Virus record (IMG/VR): IMGVR_UViG_3300021963_000021
Coordinates: 124,001-188,000 of that record
Length of the DNA: 64,000 nucleotides
Direction: 5' to 3' (one strand)
Origin: a virus
The notes beneath the pieces were generated by a model that had not been told where the DNA came from, ran no database searches, and saw nothing but the letters and a program-made list of their open reading frames with translations. Below are positions 20,484 to 29,085 of this stretch, one piece after another (positions within the stretch are counted from its first letter, which is position 1; the number at the start of each line of letters is the position of its first letter). Both the position numbers and the translations under genes were made by a program.

Positions 20484-22268
20484 ATGACTTATCGCGTAGA
20501 CAGATATAATGGAACTTTTTTAACAAATGTTGCTGATGGCACCATTGATAGCACTACGGATTTAAGGTTCGTAGGCAGAAATTACTCTGGCTACGGTGAA
20601 GTCCAGAATGAAAATTTCTTACACTTATTGGAAAATTTCTCTAATACAGTGGCCCCTAGTAGACCAATTAATGGTCAAATTTGGTATGATTCTGGTACAA
20701 AGAAACTAAAATTCTATGACGGAATAAAATTTAAAGTAGCTAGTGGAGCAGAAGTTGCTTCTACAGCACCTTCAGGACTAGCAGCAGGTGACCTATGGTT
20801 CGATTCTGGCACTAATCAGTTGTCGGCATGGAACGGTTCAAGCTTCGTTCTTATTGGTCCACAAAGCGCACCCGGTTTTGGTACTTCACAGATCGTTACA
20901 CAGGTAGTAAAAGATACTAACAACACTAGCCACGTGATACTACGAGCAGTAGTAGGTGGCGTAACTACGGCGGTATTCAGCAATGATCCAGACTTTACAC
21001 TTTCTACATCCAACAACATTTCGGGTTTTTCGGAAACCGGTCGTCAAATTAAAAAGGGTATTACACTAAACTCGGTTTTATCGTCAGGGGTCAGTGACAG
21101 CGCAGGCTATAGATTCTGGGGCACAGCAAGTAACTCGGAAAGACTGGGCGGACAAACAATTGATAAATTTATTCGTAGTGATGCCGAGGGCGGCTTCACT
21201 GCTGAGATTAATTTTAAAGCTGGCCTTACTATTAATTCTGGAAACAGAAAAGACCTGAGAATTTGGGTCAATACTAATCAGCAGCCTACTATTGAAAATC
21301 AAGTTAACGGCCCGATAGTAATGAGAATTTCAAACAGCGGATCTCAGACTGACAAAGACGATATGCTGATCATGACTAGAGATCAGTTTGATAACAGTGA
21401 TGCTACATCGGCAAATGCTATATTTCCAGGTACTACAGGTAAACTTAATTTTGGTTCATCTAATAAGAGATGGAAAAGCATCTTTGCTAACACTGTAATA
21501 TCTAATCTAGTAGGAAATGTTACTGGAAACACAACCGGTGTACACAAAGGAAACATATTATCAGCAAACGATACTGTGGCATTTAATGCTACAACAAGAG
21601 CGTTTGTTGGCGACAGCTTTACAGGATCATTTACTGGCCCATTAACTGGCCAATCAACCTCATCTATTACATCATCTAAATTAAACAACTTAGATCCTAG
21701 TGAATTGGCTACTCCTGGATTAGCAACCATTCCTATTAGAACATCGTCTGGTATTATTCGAGCTGCGAGATTTGAAGGTCAAGCAACAGATTCTATAACA
21801 GTTAACGGTAGAGCACTATCTGTAACCAAAGATCCAAACACAATCGTCCTGCGAAACGCTGGTGGCGACGTTGAAGCACGTTATTTTAACGGCACGGCCA
21901 CTTCAGCTCAATATGCTGACTTAGCAGAGATATATAAAACTGACAAAGAATACGAAGTTGGAACTGTAGTAGCAGTTGGCGGTGATGCTGAAGTAACTGA
22001 AAGTATTTTAGGTGATAGAGCCATTGGTGTTATATCTGAGCATCCTGCGTATCTAATGAACAAAGATGCCGAAGGACAAGCGGTAGCACTAAAAGGTCGT
22101 GTGCCTGTTAAAGTTTCTGGAAGAGTTAAAAAAGGTCAGAGACTAGTAGCAGGCGCCAACGGCAGAGCAGTAGCCGCCACACATCATACATTAATGGATG
22201 TTTTTGCGATAGCATTAGAAACGCACACAGAACCGACAGACGGCGTGATTGAAGCGATAATAATATAA
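20484..22268 (+). CDS. Fibre protein with conserved C-terminal domain (paralogue 5 of 5)
   Basis: 594 aa. Shared head at residues ~1-130 (FVGRNYSGYGEVQNENFLHLL, GQIWYD, GDLWFD...WNGSS). The shaft has GNVTGNTTG elements. The last ~115 residues (from YADLAEIYKTDKEYEVGTVV) form a compact domain with VISEHPAYLMN and VPVKVSGRVKKGQRLV, seen at the C-termini of many phage fibres and resembling autoproteolytic fibre-chaperone domains; cleavage is not demonstrable here. It has its own late-promoter octamer. Confidence 0.8.
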   Translation: MTYRVDRYNGTFLTNVADGTIDSTTDLRFVGRNYSGYGEVQNENFLHLLENFSNTVAPSRPINGQIWYDSGTKKLKFYDGIKFKVASGAEVASTAPSGLAAGDLWFDSGTNQLSAWNGSSFVLIGPQSAPGFGTSQIVTQVVKDTNNTSHVILRAVVGGVTTAVFSNDPDFTLSTSNNISGFSETGRQIKKGITLNSVLSSGVSDSAGYRFWGTASNSERLGGQTIDKFIRSDAEGGFTAEINFKAGLTINSGNRKDLRIWVNTNQQPTIENQVNGPIVMRISNSGSQTDKDDMLIMTRDQFDNSDATSANAIFPGTTGKLNFGSSNKRWKSIFANTVISNLVGNVTGNTTGVHKGNILSANDTVAFNATTRAFVGDSFTGSFTGPLTGQSTSSITSSKLNNLDPSELATPGLATIPIRTSSGIIRAARFEGQATDSITVNGRALSVTKDPNTIVLRNAGGDVEARYFNGTATSAQYADLAEIYKTDKEYEVGTVVAVGGDAEVTESILGDRAIGVISEHPAYLMNKDAEGQAVALKGRVPVKVSGRVKKGQRLVAGANGRAVAATHHTLMDVFAIALETHTEPTDGVIEAIII

Positions 22269-22277
22269 GGATTAGAG

Positions 22278-23495
22278 ATGGCATTACCAGCAACCCCAGC
22301 GGCACAGTACGATCCAGTTAGATATAGCGATTATAACAATCTCTATAATTATGTTGCGGATACGTTAGGCCCAATACCAGTAGACGGCGGCAATGTCTTT
22401 GGGTACAGACTTGGTCGCGGTTATGGCCAATTGACATCGACTTTTAATTCTTTATTGTATCCTTTTACTAGAACTATTACAAATATCAGTAATGCTAATC
22501 CTGCGGTAGTTACGACATCATTAGCACACAACCTTGTTGCTGACGAAGTGGTGTTTTTAGGAAACTTTACACAGAGCGGATGGAATACTTCTCCTCTAGA
22601 AGGAAACTATCAGATAGTTGACCAGGTGTTGACATCTAACACCTTTACACTTAGAAACATAGATACACGATTAACTAATGGTTATGTTGCTTGGGGGTCT
22701 GGACAAACAGGCCAATGCAGCCAGCCTATTATTAGTGCCAACCAATTCAACAATCTAAAAACAGATGTAAACAAAATCGTTAAACATACTACAGGAGTTA
22801 ACGCAACAGTAGCGCAGTTACCTATAGTTGCTCGAGGAACTGCTATTAACCATAGCGTGTATCTTCCATATTACAATACAGTAGACAGTGTTTATAACGC
22901 TAACTTAAAATTAGGTGAAAGTATTGAGTATCTAACACCAACTAGACCTACAAGGACTGCTAGTTGGAACTCTAGTATCACTACAGAACTTACAGTACAG
23001 TGGCCAACTGAATATGATTTTGTACAATATTTTAACACCGGCGGCCTTTTAAAATTTAACATTTTAGTTACATCTATTTCAAGTGGCTCGAGCACAGCAA
23101 AAAACCAATCATACTTCGATTTGGCTAACAATAATTTTCCATTATATTATGGTGCTTATACCAAAGCAGTAATGGGATACGTTGACACCACCAAGTGGGC
23201 CAACGCAGGTGCGTATGGAGCATCGCTAGCTGGCTATACTGAAATCTATAGAGTGGCGCCATCGGGCACCTATGCTGCTAACTATTATAGACTCCAGCAT
23301 CGTTTGATCAATGCTCGAACATTGTCATTTATTCTAACTGCTCAAGACGATGTTGCCAACGCATTTGCTCAAGATGTCACTGCTGACTTTGAATTTAATA
23401 TATCACTGATATATTCCACAGGATCAGTTGTACTGAATTCCAATCCGTTGACTCAGGTTTCTATCGTTTATCAGCAGACCTGGAACGGTTCATAA
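22278..23495 (+). CDS. Putative virion structural protein
   Basis: 405 aa, Asn/Thr/Tyr-rich, mostly beta in character. It lacks the shared fibre head and has no recognised catalytic motif. It starts 9 nt after the fifth fibre gene with AAGGA upstream and ends just before a strong hairpin terminator, so it is the last gene of the late virion operon. Probably a minor tail or fibre-tip protein; no family identified. Confidence 0.7.
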   Translation: MALPATPAAQYDPVRYSDYNNLYNYVADTLGPIPVDGGNVFGYRLGRGYGQLTSTFNSLLYPFTRTITNISNANPAVVTTSLAHNLVADEVVFLGNFTQSGWNTSPLEGNYQIVDQVLTSNTFTLRNIDTRLTNGYVAWGSGQTGQCSQPIISANQFNNLKTDVNKIVKHTTGVNATVAQLPIVARGTAINHSVYLPYYNTVDSVYNANLKLGESIEYLTPTRPTRTASWNSSITTELTVQWPTEYDFVQYFNTGGLLKFNILVTSISSGSSTAKNQSYFDLANNNFPLYYGAYTKAVMGYVDTTKWANAGAYGASLAGYTEIYRVAPSGTYAANYYRLQHRLINARTLSFILTAQDDVANAFAQDVTADFEFNISLIYSTGSVVLNSNPLTQVSIVYQQTWNGS

Positions 23496-23510
23496 TTAAG
23501 TATATCCTAC

Positions 23511-23546
23511 AATATCCTAGCATAAGTATCATGCTAGGATATTTTT
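23511..23546 (+). terminator. Intrinsic terminator hairpin
   Basis: A perfect 13-bp inverted repeat (23511-23523 with 23531-23543) with a 7-nt loop (23524-23530) runs into a T tract at 23542-23546. The following gene's ATG is at 23547, so the hairpin occupies the place where a ribosome-binding site would be expected. Confidence 0.85.
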
Positions 23547-23903
23547 ATGGATAAAAATCTGGAAAACATAATAGAGTTGTCGGATAAGATGTTGTCTTTT
23601 AGGACACAGCAGCTCTACGTCAAAGAAAAATTTGAAGCAGAAACTGTAGTAGGGTATTCCGGCGGAATCTTTAAAATTGATCAATCTTTGATATCCTATA
23701 TCAAAACTATAATTGATCTAGGAAAAAAAGACAATGTTGTAGTATTGGACATGAATCAACAGCCGATTCTAATACAAGATCTAACAGTGTTTCTAAGTGA
23801 TATAGTTGATAAACATCTTTCTGCCCTAGGAAGATACTATTTCCAAATACAAGAACTTAAAAAATCAAAACCGGGTTCTTGGAGAATAACACGCAAGGCA
23901 TGA
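23547..23903 (+). CDS. Small conserved phage protein, unknown function
   Basis: 118 aa, soluble, mixed helix and strand, with a basic C-terminus (SKPGSWRITRKA). No recognised motif. Its ATG follows the T tract of a terminator hairpin with no visible Shine-Dalgarno sequence. Its TGA overlaps the ATG of the first glycosyltransferase (ATGA), so it is the first gene of the accessory cassette. The start could lie further in, but the next Met (codon 15) has no better ribosome-binding site. Confidence 0.6.
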   Translation: MDKNLENIIELSDKMLSFRTQQLYVKEKFEAETVVGYSGGIFKIDQSLISYIKTIIDLGKKDNVVVLDMNQQPILIQDLTVFLSDIVDKHLSALGRYYFQIQELKKSKPGSWRITRKA

Positions 23904-24730
23904 AACAAGGTGCCCTAATATTTGCCCATAATTCAGAGACTCTTAATTACTTAAAGATGTCTTTAGTGTCGGCAAGGCTAGTTAAAAAAAATCTTAATGT
24001 TCCTGTTTGTATAGTCACTGATCAATACAGTCTTGATCAAACACAAATAGACCTTTCTCAGCATGTTGATCATGTAGTATTAATTCCCAAACCCGCAGTA
24101 GATAATTATCGTAACTTAAACAACACAAGACATGCTTTTATAAATGGCAGTAGACACTCTGCTTGGAGTCTTACACCGTTTGATCGAACGCTGCTGATAG
24201 ATTCAGATCTGTTGATTATGTCTGATGCTTATTCTCAGTACTGGGACTCAGAAGATTTTTTAATGTGCGGCAGTATGACAGATTTAATTGGCAATAAATT
24301 AAGCCAAGAAGAGATGCGAGTATCGGATCATACAATTAGACTTCGATGGGCTACTGCTGTAATGTTTACAAAGAATGAATATACTAAGAAGATTTTTGAT
24401 ACAGTTGAATTTGTAAAAAGAGAATACAGGTATTTTTCGGATCTTTACGAATTTGATTCTAGAAATTTTAGAAATGACATTGCTTTTTCGATAGCAGCAC
24501 ACATAACAAACGGCTTTAAAGAAGCAGACATATTTTTACCATCACCGTTGTTTTTTACAGACGTTGATAACATCATTGATGTAGTTGACGACCAACTTTT
24601 GATATTAGCTACTAACGGATCAAAAAATATAATACTTCCGTTAAATGGAATCGACATACATTTCCTTAATAAGAAAAATATTTTAGAAAATTATGATAAG
24701 TTAATGGAGTTAGTATGTTTGGATACTTGA
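23900..24730 (+). CDS. Glycosyltransferase-like protein (GT-A fold)
   Basis: 276 aa from the ATG that overlaps the previous stop (ATGA). The N-terminal Rossmann-like half runs from GALIFAHNS and contains a D-x-D nucleotide-sugar/metal motif in the context RTLLIDSDLLIMSD, as in GT8/GT2-type transferases. It resembles its downstream neighbour in layout (both have 'LLIDSDL/CLDADMI' after ~85 residues and a conserved RND/TDEAFALAA-type region). No membrane segments. Donor and acceptor unknown; possible acceptors are virion proteins or host surface glycans. Confidence 0.65.
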   Translation: MKQGALIFAHNSETLNYLKMSLVSARLVKKNLNVPVCIVTDQYSLDQTQIDLSQHVDHVVLIPKPAVDNYRNLNNTRHAFINGSRHSAWSLTPFDRTLLIDSDLLIMSDAYSQYWDSEDFLMCGSMTDLIGNKLSQEEMRVSDHTIRLRWATAVMFTKNEYTKKIFDTVEFVKREYRYFSDLYEFDSRNFRNDIAFSIAAHITNGFKEADIFLPSPLFFTDVDNIIDVVDDQLLILATNGSKNIILPLNGIDIHFLNKKNILENYDKLMELVCLDT

Positions 24731-25572
24731 TCATAATATCTAATGACAGTAAAAGAAACTATGCTGCTATGGCCACGCTGTTGGCGTTGTCTATCAAACA
24801 TACACAGCCTAGTGGCTACGACAATGTAGCAATAGTTACAGATGATCAAGAACAGGTAAAACTTTTTAAAGCATTGCCATACTTTGATAGAGTAATATTT
24901 TGGAACGAAAAAACACATTGGGATGGTAGAAGTTTCATGGATAAATTGACTCCGTGGGAACAGACTATTTGTCTCGATGCTGATATGATTTTTACTAGAG
25001 ATTACAGTCATTGGGTAGATCACTTCTTAAAAAATTGTGAGTTGTATATTCCTTCTACGGCCTATACATTTAGAGGTGACATAGTTACTTCTAATTATTA
25101 TAGAGAAACTTTTGTAAAAAATTCTCTGCCTAATCTTTATTCTGCTTATACCTACTTTACAAAAACCAGCGAGCTGGCTAGAGACTTTTTCAATTTACAA
25201 AGAGCTATAATAGAAAATCCGATTGAGTTTAAAAATCTCTATCTAGAAAAATTAATTCCTGAAGTGGTAGGAACAGATGAAGCTTTTGCTCTTGCTGCTA
25301 AAATTTTAGGAATAGAATCTCAAATATCTTACAAGATGAATTTTCCTAGATTTGTCCACATGAAGCCAATGGTCCAAGATTTTAAAAATCCTATTACAAC
25401 AACAGGCGTTGATCTTGGGTATTATTTTAATAATGATAATAAAATAAAGATAGGACAATACTATCAGACTGATATATTACACTACGCAGATAAAGATCTT
25501 GATATTGAAAGCATGATTAAGAATTATGAAAAGATGATGTTTAAAGGATTAAAAAACTATGAACATCTATAA
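24715..25572 (+). CDS. Glycosyltransferase-like protein (GT8-like)
   Basis: 285 aa. D-x-D motif in QTICLDADMIFTRD (near residue 85), and a later GTDEAFALAAKILG helix plus PRFVHMKP, a layout typical of GT8-like enzymes that use UDP-sugars. It overlaps the upstream transferase by 16 bases and the next gene by 14, consistent with co-translation. No secretion signal. Acceptor unknown. Confidence 0.65.
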   Translation: MFGYLIIISNDSKRNYAAMATLLALSIKHTQPSGYDNVAIVTDDQEQVKLFKALPYFDRVIFWNEKTHWDGRSFMDKLTPWEQTICLDADMIFTRDYSHWVDHFLKNCELYIPSTAYTFRGDIVTSNYYRETFVKNSLPNLYSAYTYFTKTSELARDFFNLQRAIIENPIEFKNLYLEKLIPEVVGTDEAFALAAKILGIESQISYKMNFPRFVHMKPMVQDFKNPITTTGVDLGYYFNNDNKIKIGQYYQTDILHYADKDLDIESMIKNYEKMMFKGLKNYEHL

Positions 25573-26143
25573 GATCTATGTTGATAAAAATTTGGGGACA
25601 GTTATAATGTTCTCAAACAGCGATCTGCCAGAAATGGATCATCCTGATTTTTTACCATTTACTGTTCCTGAGCAATATAGTGAACTATTTGATAGAATAA
25701 AAGAGGGTAAAGATTCTTTGAGCAGAATACGTGTAAACGTAAGCAGTAAAGAATTTAAAATTTATTCTTTAAATGATTTTAAAGACACTGACTATGAGTA
25801 TGGTAAATGGTTTAAATTACCTTGTTATAGAAGGAATCCTCCCGTCGAGGCAGATTTGATATTAACGATTATCAGTAAAAATTTTAAACCTTATCTATCT
25901 TTAAAGTTTGTCGGGGACCCTAAGATTTTAAAAGATCCCAAACGTCATTCTTTAAATTTCTATTTCACTAAACAAAATGATTTAAATTGTTTGTATGAAT
26001 CTTTCCATACAGACTTCGACAAACTAGACAAGAACAACGAAATCGTTTTTCCTATAGAGCGTATAGATCCTGATAAATTATTTCAAAATAATTTCAGTGT
26101 TTATTATAGAAAAATTTTTAAAACGGTATATTACGTATTATGA
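25559..26143 (+). CDS. Unknown protein of the glycosyltransferase/radical SAM cassette
   Basis: 194 aa, Lys/Phe/Asp-rich, with no recognised domain and no membrane segment. It overlaps the upstream glycosyltransferase by 14 bases and shares an ATGA overlap with the next gene, so it belongs to the same translation unit. No homology can be claimed from reading. Confidence 0.6.
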   Translation: MNIYKIYVDKNLGTVIMFSNSDLPEMDHPDFLPFTVPEQYSELFDRIKEGKDSLSRIRVNVSSKEFKIYSLNDFKDTDYEYGKWFKLPCYRRNPPVEADLILTIISKNFKPYLSLKFVGDPKILKDPKRHSLNFYFTKQNDLNCLYESFHTDFDKLDKNNEIVFPIERIDPDKLFQNNFSVYYRKIFKTVYYVL

Positions 26144-27042
26144 AACCATCAGATTTAGAAGTGATTTTTATCAGTTATGACGAGCCTAACGCAGATTTAA
26201 ATTATTCAGACTTATTAACTAAAGCACCATGGGCTAAAAGAATACACGGTGTTAAAGGCAGCGACAATGCGCATAAAGCTGCCGCAGCTGAATCATCTAC
26301 TGATTGGTTTGTTACAGTAGATGGTGACAACAAAGTAGATCCGAAGTTTTTTAACATTGAAATAGAAGAATTGCCAAATGTTAATGTATACGGATGGTGT
26401 GGTAAAAACAACATAAATGGTCTACGCTATGGCAATGGTGGTTTGAAAATCTGGAACAAACAATTTGTATTAGATATGAAGACACACGAGTCTGCTGAAG
26501 ATCCAAGAGCACAGGTTGATTTTTGCTGGGAAGCCGGATACATGAACTTTCCTACAGTGTTCAGTGAAACAATCATTAACTCAACTCCCTTCCAAGCATG
26601 GCGAGCAGGATTCCGTGAAGGTGTTAAGATGCTGTTGAAAGACGGACTTAAGATTGATAAAGCACGTCTTAAACAAGAAGTATATTGGCATAACATACAT
26701 AGACTTCGTATGTGGAGTTGCGTCGGGTCACATGTACCTAATGGAAATTATGCCATACTCGGTGCTAGGATGGGCAGCTGGATGGCATATTGTACTGATT
26801 GGGATCACATAAATGTTAGAGATTTTGATGTGTTAAAAGATCTCTATGAAAAGAATGTCACGCACGATGATATTGAGAATGACATAAAAGATCTAGGAAA
26901 AGAGTTACGAATTAACCTGGGGTTGAATTGGTCTTATTTTATACCCGAACAAAGTGAGTATGTTGTAGAGATGTATGAAGAATCTATAGCATTGGGACAG
27001 ACATATTTTAACAAGGCTCCGATATGGAAAAGTTCTTCTTAG
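26140..27042 (+). CDS. Putative glycosyltransferase, paralogue of the next gene
   Basis: 300 aa. A GT-A-like core with a D-x-D motif in WFVTVDGDNKVD (residues ~57-68), then YGNGGLKIWNKQF and FQAWRAGFREGVKML. The last two blocks recur in the following gene as YGHGGVKIFQKKY and FHAWRTAFRECVKL, so the two arose by duplication. Resembles GT2-type nucleotide-sugar transferases, but the family call is tentative. Coupled to both neighbours by start/stop overlaps. Confidence 0.6.
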   Translation: MKPSDLEVIFISYDEPNADLNYSDLLTKAPWAKRIHGVKGSDNAHKAAAAESSTDWFVTVDGDNKVDPKFFNIEIEELPNVNVYGWCGKNNINGLRYGNGGLKIWNKQFVLDMKTHESAEDPRAQVDFCWEAGYMNFPTVFSETIINSTPFQAWRAGFREGVKMLLKDGLKIDKARLKQEVYWHNIHRLRMWSCVGSHVPNGNYAILGARMGSWMAYCTDWDHINVRDFDVLKDLYEKNVTHDDIENDIKDLGKELRINLGLNWSYFIPEQSEYVVEMYEESIALGQTYFNKAPIWKSSS

Positions 27043-27704
27043 CATTTGACGATCCAAATTCAAAAGAAAACTTTGATCGTGCTAGATCGATGATCCCTGA
27101 TCTACAGGAAGTTAACACAAAAATGTCTATAGTTGAATCACATAAACTGTGCGGGTCAATGTCGTTGACTAATCAATTTATGGTATTAGATGCTGATTCG
27201 TACTTGTTAGATGAATTCAATATGGCAGAACTTTATAACATCTGTAAAGACTCAGATTGGATTTACATATTTTCTGCTAGAAATCCCGTAAACGATTTAG
27301 AGTATGGTCACGGTGGTGTAAAGATATTTCAAAAAAAATATTTTAATAACAATGAAGTTATAGATTTTTCTACTAGCTTTTTAGGAAAGATCCGCACTGT
27401 TAAAAAAACACTAAACATACATAGATTTAATTCTAGCGCATTTCACGCATGGCGTACAGCATTTAGAGAATGTGTTAAGCTAAGTTCTTCCACTATTGTT
27501 AACAGAAATAAAATAGACGACGAATATAGATTGACAGTGTGGTGTGAAAAATTCAACGATGTTGAATACGCAGAATTTGTCAAACTAGGAGCGATACAGG
27601 GCAGAGACTTTGGTAATTCAAATAAAAATAATCCTGCTGAGCTTAAAAAGATAAATGATTTTATATGGTTAAACAGATCCTATGAACAAGTGGTACAACG
27701 ATAG
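27024..27704 (+). CDS. Putative glycosyltransferase, shorter paralogue
   Basis: 226 aa. Shares with the upstream 300-aa protein the Y-G-x-G-G-x-K-I block and the F-x-A-W-R-x-x-F-R-E-x-V-K block, and has a D-x-D in MVLDADSYLLD. It lacks about 70 residues, mainly at the C-terminus, so it may have a different acceptor or be a partner subunit. It overlaps the upstream gene by 19 bases and the radical SAM gene by 23. Confidence 0.55.
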   Translation: MEKFFLAFDDPNSKENFDRARSMIPDLQEVNTKMSIVESHKLCGSMSLTNQFMVLDADSYLLDEFNMAELYNICKDSDWIYIFSARNPVNDLEYGHGGVKIFQKKYFNNNEVIDFSTSFLGKIRTVKKTLNIHRFNSSAFHAWRTAFRECVKLSSSTIVNRNKIDDEYRLTVWCEKFNDVEYAEFVKLGAIQGRDFGNSNKNNPAELKKINDFIWLNRSYEQVVQR

Positions 27705-29085
27705 ACTTGAATACAAAAAAGAATTAGACACCATTGGTCACGGATTTTGTTCGGCTAAATGGAGTCAAGTTACCATACACTTAGGTACGGGGCATAATCA
27801 CAGTTGTCATCATCCTAGGACACATTTTATTCCTATTGAAGAAATAGTCGAAGATCCAACAGCATTACACAATACAAAATTTAAAAAAGAAATACGTAGG
27901 CAGATGCTCAACGGTGAACGTCCAACGGAATGCGATTACTGTTGGAAAGTCGAAGATGCTGGCGAGCCTCTTAGCGACAGAGTATTAAAAAGTTATGAAC
28001 CGTGGAGCAGAGATTATTTTGACAAAATAATAAAAGCAGGATCGGAAGGTAATGTAGATCCTAGCTACTTAGAAGTTAGTTTTTCAAATGTTTGTAATTT
28101 TAAATGTTCTTATTGCTCTCCTGATGTTAGCAGTCAGTGGATGGAAGAAATTAAACAGCACGGACCTTACCCTACGTCTATACGATACAATAATATTGAT
28201 TGGATACAGAAGCAGGATAAGATGCCAATTCCTGAGCGTGAATACAATCCATATGTAGAAGCATTTTGGAAGTGGTGGCCGGACCTTTATAAAAATTTAC
28301 ATACATTCCGCATTACAGGCGGTGAACCATTATTAACTAAACACACATTTCGTGTATTAGATTATATAATTGAAAATCCTAACAAGAATCTAGAACTTAG
28401 CATTAACAGTAATTTCTGTGTACCTGATGATGTATTTGAAAAGTTTCTTTCGAAATTAGAAATAATACAATCAAAAAAATCAGTGAAGCATTTAGTTGTG
28501 TTTACTAGCTGTGAAGCAGCAGGGCCAAAAGCTGAATATATTAGACACGGATTGAATTATGCCAAATGGTATTCTAATTGTAATTTGTTTTTACAAAGAA
28601 TACCAAATGCTAAACTAGGTATTATGAGCACCTATAATGCGCTGTCAGTTACTAGCTATACTGATTTCTTAAAAGACATGTGGTTGTTAAATTATACGCA
28701 CAGCAAAAAGAAATGGTATCAATCAATCGCTAGCTTAGTGTCGACTGGTGATTTAGGTAAGCATCCATTGATATTAGATATTCCGTATCTTAATAACCCA
28801 CCGCATCAGACTGTGGGAATACTTACGCCCGACTACATACCTCGTATACAAGAATCTATTGATTACATGAACTCTAATAAAGAGTTCTATAAATCAGAAA
28901 CTCAAAAATTAGAAAGACTATTAAAAGTTTTTGAACCAAAAATTCTTGATGACAATCCTGGTAAAGCGCAGCACAGAAAAGATTTTGTTTCTTTTGTTGA
29001 CGAGCACGATAAGAGACGAGGAACGAACTTTTTAAGTACGTTCCCCGAAATGACAGAGTTTTATAACTTTTGTAAAACTTACTGA
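27682..29085 (+). CDS. Radical SAM enzyme with N-terminal cysteine domain
   Basis: 467 aa. The radical SAM cluster motif is C138-x3-C142-x2-C145 (SNVCNFKCSYC), followed by RITGGEPLL, the SAM-binding GGE motif. Before it, residues ~23-90 hold a His/Cys-rich segment (GHNHSCHHPR and ECDYCW; C42, C84, C87) that looks like an extra iron-sulfur ('twitch'/SPASM-like) domain, placed N-terminally rather than C-terminally. Such enzymes often modify peptides. It is the last gene of the glycosyltransferase cassette, overlapping the preceding gene by 23 bases; the start ATG at 27682 is fixed by that coupling. Substrate unknown. Confidence 0.8.
   Translation: MNKWYNDRLEYKKELDTIGHGFCSAKWSQVTIHLGTGHNHSCHHPRTHFIPIEEIVEDPTALHNTKFKKEIRRQMLNGERPTECDYCWKVEDAGEPLSDRVLKSYEPWSRDYFDKIIKAGSEGNVDPSYLEVSFSNVCNFKCSYCSPDVSSQWMEEIKQHGPYPTSIRYNNIDWIQKQDKMPIPEREYNPYVEAFWKWWPDLYKNLHTFRITGGEPLLTKHTFRVLDYIIENPNKNLELSINSNFCVPDDVFEKFLSKLEIIQSKKSVKHLVVFTSCEAAGPKAEYIRHGLNYAKWYSNCNLFLQRIPNAKLGIMSTYNALSVTSYTDFLKDMWLLNYTHSKKKWYQSIASLVSTGDLGKHPLILDIPYLNNPPHQTVGILTPDYIPRIQESIDYMNSNKEFYKSETQKLERLLKVFEPKILDDNPGKAQHRKDFVSFVDEHDKRRGTNFLSTFPEMTEFYNFCKTY

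Follow-up and report, generated by a model that had tools for sequence, protein, structure and literature searches.

The analysed window is a stretch of 64,000 nucleotides, positions 124001-188000 (G000:C1) of a 363,943-base virus record from a jumbo phage. Seven plus-strand open reading frames occupy positions 23547-29085, each overlapping its neighbour by 4-23 bases, as the preliminary description had stated. Specifically, the overlaps are 4, 16, 14, 4, 19 and 23 bases if ATG 23900 is taken as the start of gtA8. This ATG is used by the homologs and is most likely the true start; the listed TTG at 23879 merely gives the longest ORF. Upstream of the cassette there is a run of fibre/structural ORFs, and its 3' neighbour, on the opposite strand, is a thymidylate synthase (phrog_85). 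The earlier placement of the genes behind tail-fibre genes and a terminator also holds, with a hairpin and T5 between ORF 22278-23495 and p118. The features are:

20484..22268, plus strand: up594, tail-fibre protein with a C-terminal Peptidase_G2/IMC chaperone-like domain (Pfam, PHROG, PA5oct homolog); linkage anchor
22278..23495, plus strand: fibre/structural protein of the 'GYGQ' type and candidate substrate; in most loci its gene lies immediately 5' of the cassette
23507..23546, plus strand: conserved terminator-like hairpin with late-promoter-like CATAAGTA 26 nt 5' of the start codon; AGGA of p118 in the 3' arm
23547..23903, plus strand: p118, small conserved protein; adaptor, chaperone or acceptor as candidate roles
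23900..24730, plus strand: gtA8, GT8-like glycosyltransferase; DxD D108/D110, H261/K265 (283-aa numbering)
24715..25572, plus strand: gtB8, paralog of gtA8; D88/D90, H215xK217
25559..26143, plus strand: p194, fast-evolving, mainly beta; co-diverges with the fibre
26140..27042, plus strand: gtC, GT2-like GT-A glycosyltransferase; D61/D63
27024..27704, plus strand: gtD, paralog of gtC; D56/D58
27682..29085, plus strand: radical SAM enzyme (rSAM), NCBIfam N_Twi_rSAM; CX3CX2C C138/C142/C145 and four more invariant Cys

No transmembrane-like stretch was found in any cassette protein of the window. The glycosyltransferases (GTs) form two paralogous pairs. gtA8 and gtB8 are related to each other (hhalign 99.4%, E 4.9e-21), the gtA8 profile matches the GT8 enzyme glycogenin-1 (E = 0.0016), and in both the DxD and the C-terminal H/K motif are invariant at the positions given above. 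We call them GT8-like only, because they fall short of the Pfam GT8 family itself: PF01501 (Glyco_transf_8) was reached by one of 25 gtA8 members at E = 0.0096, below the Pfam cutoff, and no gtB8 member reached any Pfam family at 0.01. gtC and gtD are likewise paralogs (E 4.4e-40). The structure model of gtC (pLDDT 90) finds its best fold matches in the GT-A enzymes SunS, RmlT and WrtF, with probabilities of about 0.9-1 and a low TM of about 0.3; the top match, at this low TM, is the peptide S-glycosyltransferase SunS. Single gtC members reach Pfam Glycos_transf_2 (E 8.8e-4). The glycogenin match, the gtC fold and the paralogy tests bear out the initial assignment of two GT8-like and two paralogous GT-A-like proteins. 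DxD is invariant across all four families, and the four enzymes are apparently soluble and active. None of them matches a phage GT family in PHROGs.

The two remaining proteins are small, and either may be a substrate, carrier or adaptor. p118 is conserved over most of its length with no obvious variable core, and no known relatives of it were found. It is the only small gene of the cassette, so a RiPP-style short precursor beside a maturase is not seen here. The model of p194 is mainly beta with high local confidence; a structure search of the PDB gave no match below 1e-3, and a search of a viral library matched only unnamed or uncharacterised proteins.

The last gene product belongs to NCBIfam NF033640 (N_Twi_rSAM), scoring 345.8 bits (cutoff 170) over model positions 4-398 of 398. 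Its CX3CX2C cysteines C138/C142/C145 and also C23, C42, C84 and C87 are invariant in 24 radical SAM sequences. The latter four confirm the Cys-rich N-terminal region noticed earlier and could serve as ligands of a second cluster. Membership in a defence system was rejected, the viperin-like radical SAM match being weak compared to the N_Twi score. BtrN and NeoN illustrate that radical SAM enzymes with twitch/SPASM-type auxiliary clusters act on sugars as well as peptides, and a radical SAM gene therefore need not imply a peptide substrate. The preliminary description noted that radical SAM proteins with extra clusters commonly modify peptides; for N_Twi_rSAM we found no known peptide substrate, and in other contigs it lies among sugar-type genes (GTs, NDP-sugar-epimerase-like, UDP-glucose-dehydrogenase-like). 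At L007:2072-12148 and the related loci L005-L014 the seven-gene cassette is missing, and N_Twi_rSAM stands beside other GT-like genes and epimerase-like ones.

The gene set was searched for in other phages. In IMG/VR the gtC search returned 401 relatives, 80 of which were kept, and the gtB8 search returned at least 574 stretches; many of these contigs overlap one another or are closely related, so that the counts are not independent events. The order p118-gtA8-gtB8-p194-gtC-gtD-rSAM is found in 84 gtC loci (60 complete), where adjacent cassette genes overlap in 95-100% of cases. An order that recurs to this extent is not due to chance. When loci were anchored on gtB8, the expected gene was in place for p194 in 77/77, gtC in 74/74, gtD in 67/67, gtA8 in 68/69, p118 in 62/65 and rSAM in 48/52. 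The part from p118 to gtC is also largely intact in MAG-binned contigs at 41-48% gtC identity; these are probably phage contigs, several of them with marine titles. Seven tblastn queries with gtC, gtB8, p118 and p194 gave no match in 50,697 cultured-phage records, and the radical SAM search of phage records gave one weak match, a marine single-cell virus. Thus the same gene order exists in hundreds of uncultivated phage contigs. The objection that such genes might not occur together in related phages fails, since the cassette is conserved in many phages and tied to fibre genes.

This tie was seen from the fibre side as well. up594 has PHROG tail-fibre matches and an E value of 2.4e-5 against Pfam PF11962, just under the cutoff; its homolog in phage PA5oct, which has no cassette, is annotated 'virion structural protein, ESI-MS/MS'. 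In a fibre-anchored search that made no use of the cassette, the cassette was at most three genes away in 43 of the 50 loci with enough sequence. In six of the seven exceptions the match is confined to the C-terminal fibre region (residues 342-594, 409-593 or 453-594); L255 is a genuine exception. The synteny persists down to about 34-40% fibre identity. By eye, most of the 101 distinct sequences have a GYGQ-type structural protein directly 5' of p118, and no conserved acceptor motif is visible at the fibre C terminus, where the ends vary. The linkage can also stem from common ancestry within one phage lineage.

Divergence follows the same lines. Pairwise divergences of p118, gtA8, gtB8 and gtC are tightly correlated (0.82-0.91), whereas rSAM correlates with these only at 0.14-0.22. 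In group 2 loci the Spearman correlation with fibre divergence is 0.72-0.82 for p118, gtA8, gtB8 and p194 and 0.02 for rSAM; in group 1 loci p194 co-diverges best with the fibre (0.66), at a distance of three genes. In one clade (L209-L254) the radical SAM proteins encoded 3' of gtD belong to two other subfamilies. As the divergence of rSAM barely tracks the fibre and other subfamilies replace it in this clade, sequence comparison indicates that the core is the fibre, p118, the GTs and p194, and that the radical SAM gene sits at the end as an interchangeable part. A radical SAM enzyme is preferred at the 3' position; which subfamily is not fixed. What stands of the initial interpretation is a coherent, fibre-tied GT/radical SAM cassette in many phages. 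A system centred on the radical SAM enzyme is not supported, because this enzyme is the least linked member and is swapped for other subfamilies. Some loci carry extra 3' genes, named by sequence reading: a radical SAM tandem and NDP-sugar-epimerase-like, UDP-glucose-dehydrogenase-like and GT-like genes. Outside the window, this phage has nine more radical SAM genes in a 23-kb island (G000:C1:240801-263881; L267, L268) that also holds SDR/NDP-sugar-type genes. Some of these radical SAM genes resemble the subfamilies that replace N_Twi_rSAM in L209-L254.

The hairpin in front of p118 has 13 bp (-16.6 kcal/mol) and is followed by T5. Two-sided compensatory changes in 6 of 12 consensus pairs among relatives show that it is real. 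As it overlaps the start region of p118, it is probably a regulatory element as well as a terminator. The late-promoter-like element at -26 lies in the 5' arm and loop, and the AGGA of p118 in the 3' arm. If this element is a promoter, transcripts starting inside the hairpin would escape it, as happens at some T4 late genes. Neither strand of the window contains the exact T4 late consensus TATAAATA (0 vs 6.9 expected); AATAAATA is found at about -26 of the fibre gene at 20484. Among relatives, a T4-type late promoter motif precedes p118 in 49 of 87 distinct upstream regions, compared to 4.4 in shuffles. Such motifs precede the cassette in group 2 loci, and the window group has the strong hairpin instead. 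In the L209-L254 clade all 17 loci examined have a host-type TTGACT-17-TATAAT (spacer about 17) 5' of p118, unlike the adjoining fibre genes, which carry late motifs. Expression of the cassette in this clade is probably early, and an argument from late-only expression was dropped for this reason. Going by these motifs, the cassette is predicted to have its own promoter in most lineages, with the promoter class varying. Timing does not settle the substrate.

Two kinds of relatives lie outside the cassette set. The trio gtC-gtD-rSAM occurs in Bdellovibrionia contigs without the fibre, p118 or gtA8/gtB8, and one of these contigs, at 493 kb, is clearly chromosomal. As the trio stands alone there, some members of the set act on a different substrate. 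Trio loci are L112:7986-11150, L109 and L114; at L112 it adjoins a further pair of radical SAM genes. The fibre family of the window is also present in two cultured phages, Atu_ph07 and Phosso (phmmer 6e-48 and 3e-45), where it is followed 3' by a different cassette with a cupin-like protein and three (Atu_ph07) or four (Phosso) radical SAM genes. One radical SAM enzyme of these cassettes is over the SPASM-domain cutoff. Between the radical SAM genes lies a 296/306-aa protein (L259:16449-17339, Atu_ph07 gp170; L262:15679-16599, Phosso) whose conserved tail, CHxSCHASCHxSRSRR, makes it look like a probable structural protein to which a RiPP core is fused. The Atu_ph07 cassette proteins were compared with those of the window (hmmsearch --max), and homology was rejected save for weak radical SAM similarity.

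From gene order, coupling, kept catalytic motifs, GT folds and paralogy, the radical SAM family and the fibre linkage we infer a substrate, an order of steps, a chemistry and a purpose. With moderate confidence we propose that the products of the cassette work in the cytoplasm as a machine for glycosylating the neighbouring fibre, with tailoring by the radical SAM enzyme. gtA8 and gtB8 would start or build a glycan on the fibre protein encoded by the genes just upstream, gtC and gtD would extend it, and p118 and p194 may help to deliver or recognise the fibre. The radical SAM enzyme would tailor the sugar by epimerisation, dehydrogenation or deoxygenation; the acceptor residue is a less likely target. 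The receptor-binding tip would thereby be coated with glycan, changing adsorption or shielding the fibre. Fibre modification fits best because four soluble GTs, two accessory proteins and a tailoring enzyme are locked to one fibre family. It is favoured by the 43 fibre-anchored loci, the gtB8-anchored neighbours, the position of the GYGQ protein and the fibre-tracking divergence, and also by the invariant DxD, the SunS fold match, the lack of transmembrane stretches, the late motifs and the 3' sugar genes. It is weakened by the early-type promoter of L209-L254, the Bdellovibrionia trio, possible shared ancestry and the lack of a recognisable acceptor site. Since the same gene order recurs in hundreds of uncultivated phage contigs, this is probably a dedicated machine for decorating the phage's own fibre or, with lower probability, the host surface.

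GT8 enzymes include LPS core GTs, and the cassette could instead remodel the LPS core or O-chain of the infected host, which would keep competitors from adsorbing or spare progeny from being trapped; the link to the fibre would then reflect a host-recognition island only. We regard this as possible but less probable than fibre decoration. The GTs of the pelagimyophage host recognition cluster have been read in this way (PMC7029224), as have cyanophage GT clusters (PMC7824862). In view of the early-type promoter of L209-L254 and the trio in bacterial chromosomes, this alternative stays serious. An ADP-heptose-like gene set elsewhere in the phage points in the same direction. It lies outside the window at G000:C1:42000-47000 (L270), comprises an RfaE-like kinase and nucleotidyltransferase and an HldD-like epimerase, named by eye (the epimerase also by PF01370), and is a possible source of sugar donors. 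However, the cassette has no flippase, polymerase, lipid-phosphate sugar initiator or membrane GT, late promoter motifs lie 5' of it in group 2 loci, and its synteny with one fibre family persists to low fibre identity.

A bolder reading, of rather low probability, is that the fibre is a virion glycoprotein whose glycan (or acceptor residue) is tailored by the radical SAM enzyme and that the fibre locus docks interchangeable modification cassettes, for glycosylation in one lineage and with radical SAM enzymes and a RiPP-like tailed protein in Atu_ph07-like phages. The arrangement of fibre, radical SAM cassette and CHxS-tailed protein in Atu_ph07 and Phosso could mean that in the window p118, p194 or the fibre is modified by the radical SAM enzyme in a RiPP-like manner, with sugars then added to the product. 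This is unlikely, as the window cassette lacks a CHxS tail, its radical SAM enzyme is of another subfamily, and rSAM is the most freely exchanged gene, missing from its place in 4 of 52 gtB8-anchored loci. In T4-like phages, phage-encoded GTs glucosylate hydroxymethylcytosine, and those of the cassette might similarly act on hypermodified phage DNA. We consider this very improbable: the cassette sits among fibre genes with a late promoter motif in many loci, its GTs match no phage GT family in PHROGs, and the record, possibly a fragment, contains no PF00303 thymidylate synthase/dCMP-hydroxymethylase-type gene.

Present in hundreds of contigs from uncultivated phages, a module of such strict order, whose GT families lie outside Pfam and have no match in cultured-phage records (gtC and gtB8 queried), would form a layer of phage-host interaction that is widespread yet has gone unseen. 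Should the fibre prove to be the substrate, adsorption would be tuned by chemical decoration as well as by sequence, and N_Twi radical SAM enzymes would gain a biological context. Atu_ph07 and Phosso, cultured and with the same fibre and a parallel radical SAM cassette, make the question testable.

Mycobacteriophage GTs glycosylate capsid and tail virion proteins, which would be the same kind of outcome; to our knowledge no radical SAM or paired GT8/GT2 set takes part there. Gtr serotype-conversion systems have a membrane flippase and a membrane GT, and the window cassette has neither. The window enzyme is a member of NF033640 (twitch domain-containing radical SAM protein), a model whose name gives no reaction; its context in a GT cassette is new. 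The pelagimyophage host recognition cluster contains GT8 glycosyltransferases and radical SAM gene cassettes and, like the window, has them inserted among T4-like tail-fibre genes; its GTs are taken to modify the host O-chain, and the excerpted text describes no fixed seven-gene order, strict fibre linkage or p118/p194 (PMC7029224). Jumbo cyanophages have capsular polysaccharide modification gene clusters in which GTs also occur with sugar/tailoring enzymes, but these are sporadic and polymorphic, with radical SAM absent from the main text (PMC7824862), and the window set is strictly ordered. The Agrobacterium phage Atu_ph07 and the Sinorhizobium phage Phosso share with the window the fibre family upstream and radical SAM genes downstream. 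They differ in having no GT, p118 or p194 homologs and in carrying other radical SAM subfamilies with cupin-like and CHxS-tailed proteins; in Atu_ph07, CDS 170-215 are placed in a cluster of virion proteins identified by mass spectrometry (PMC6102473). Phage GTs themselves are thus a known idea, and what is new is the fixed module and its linkage to the fibre.
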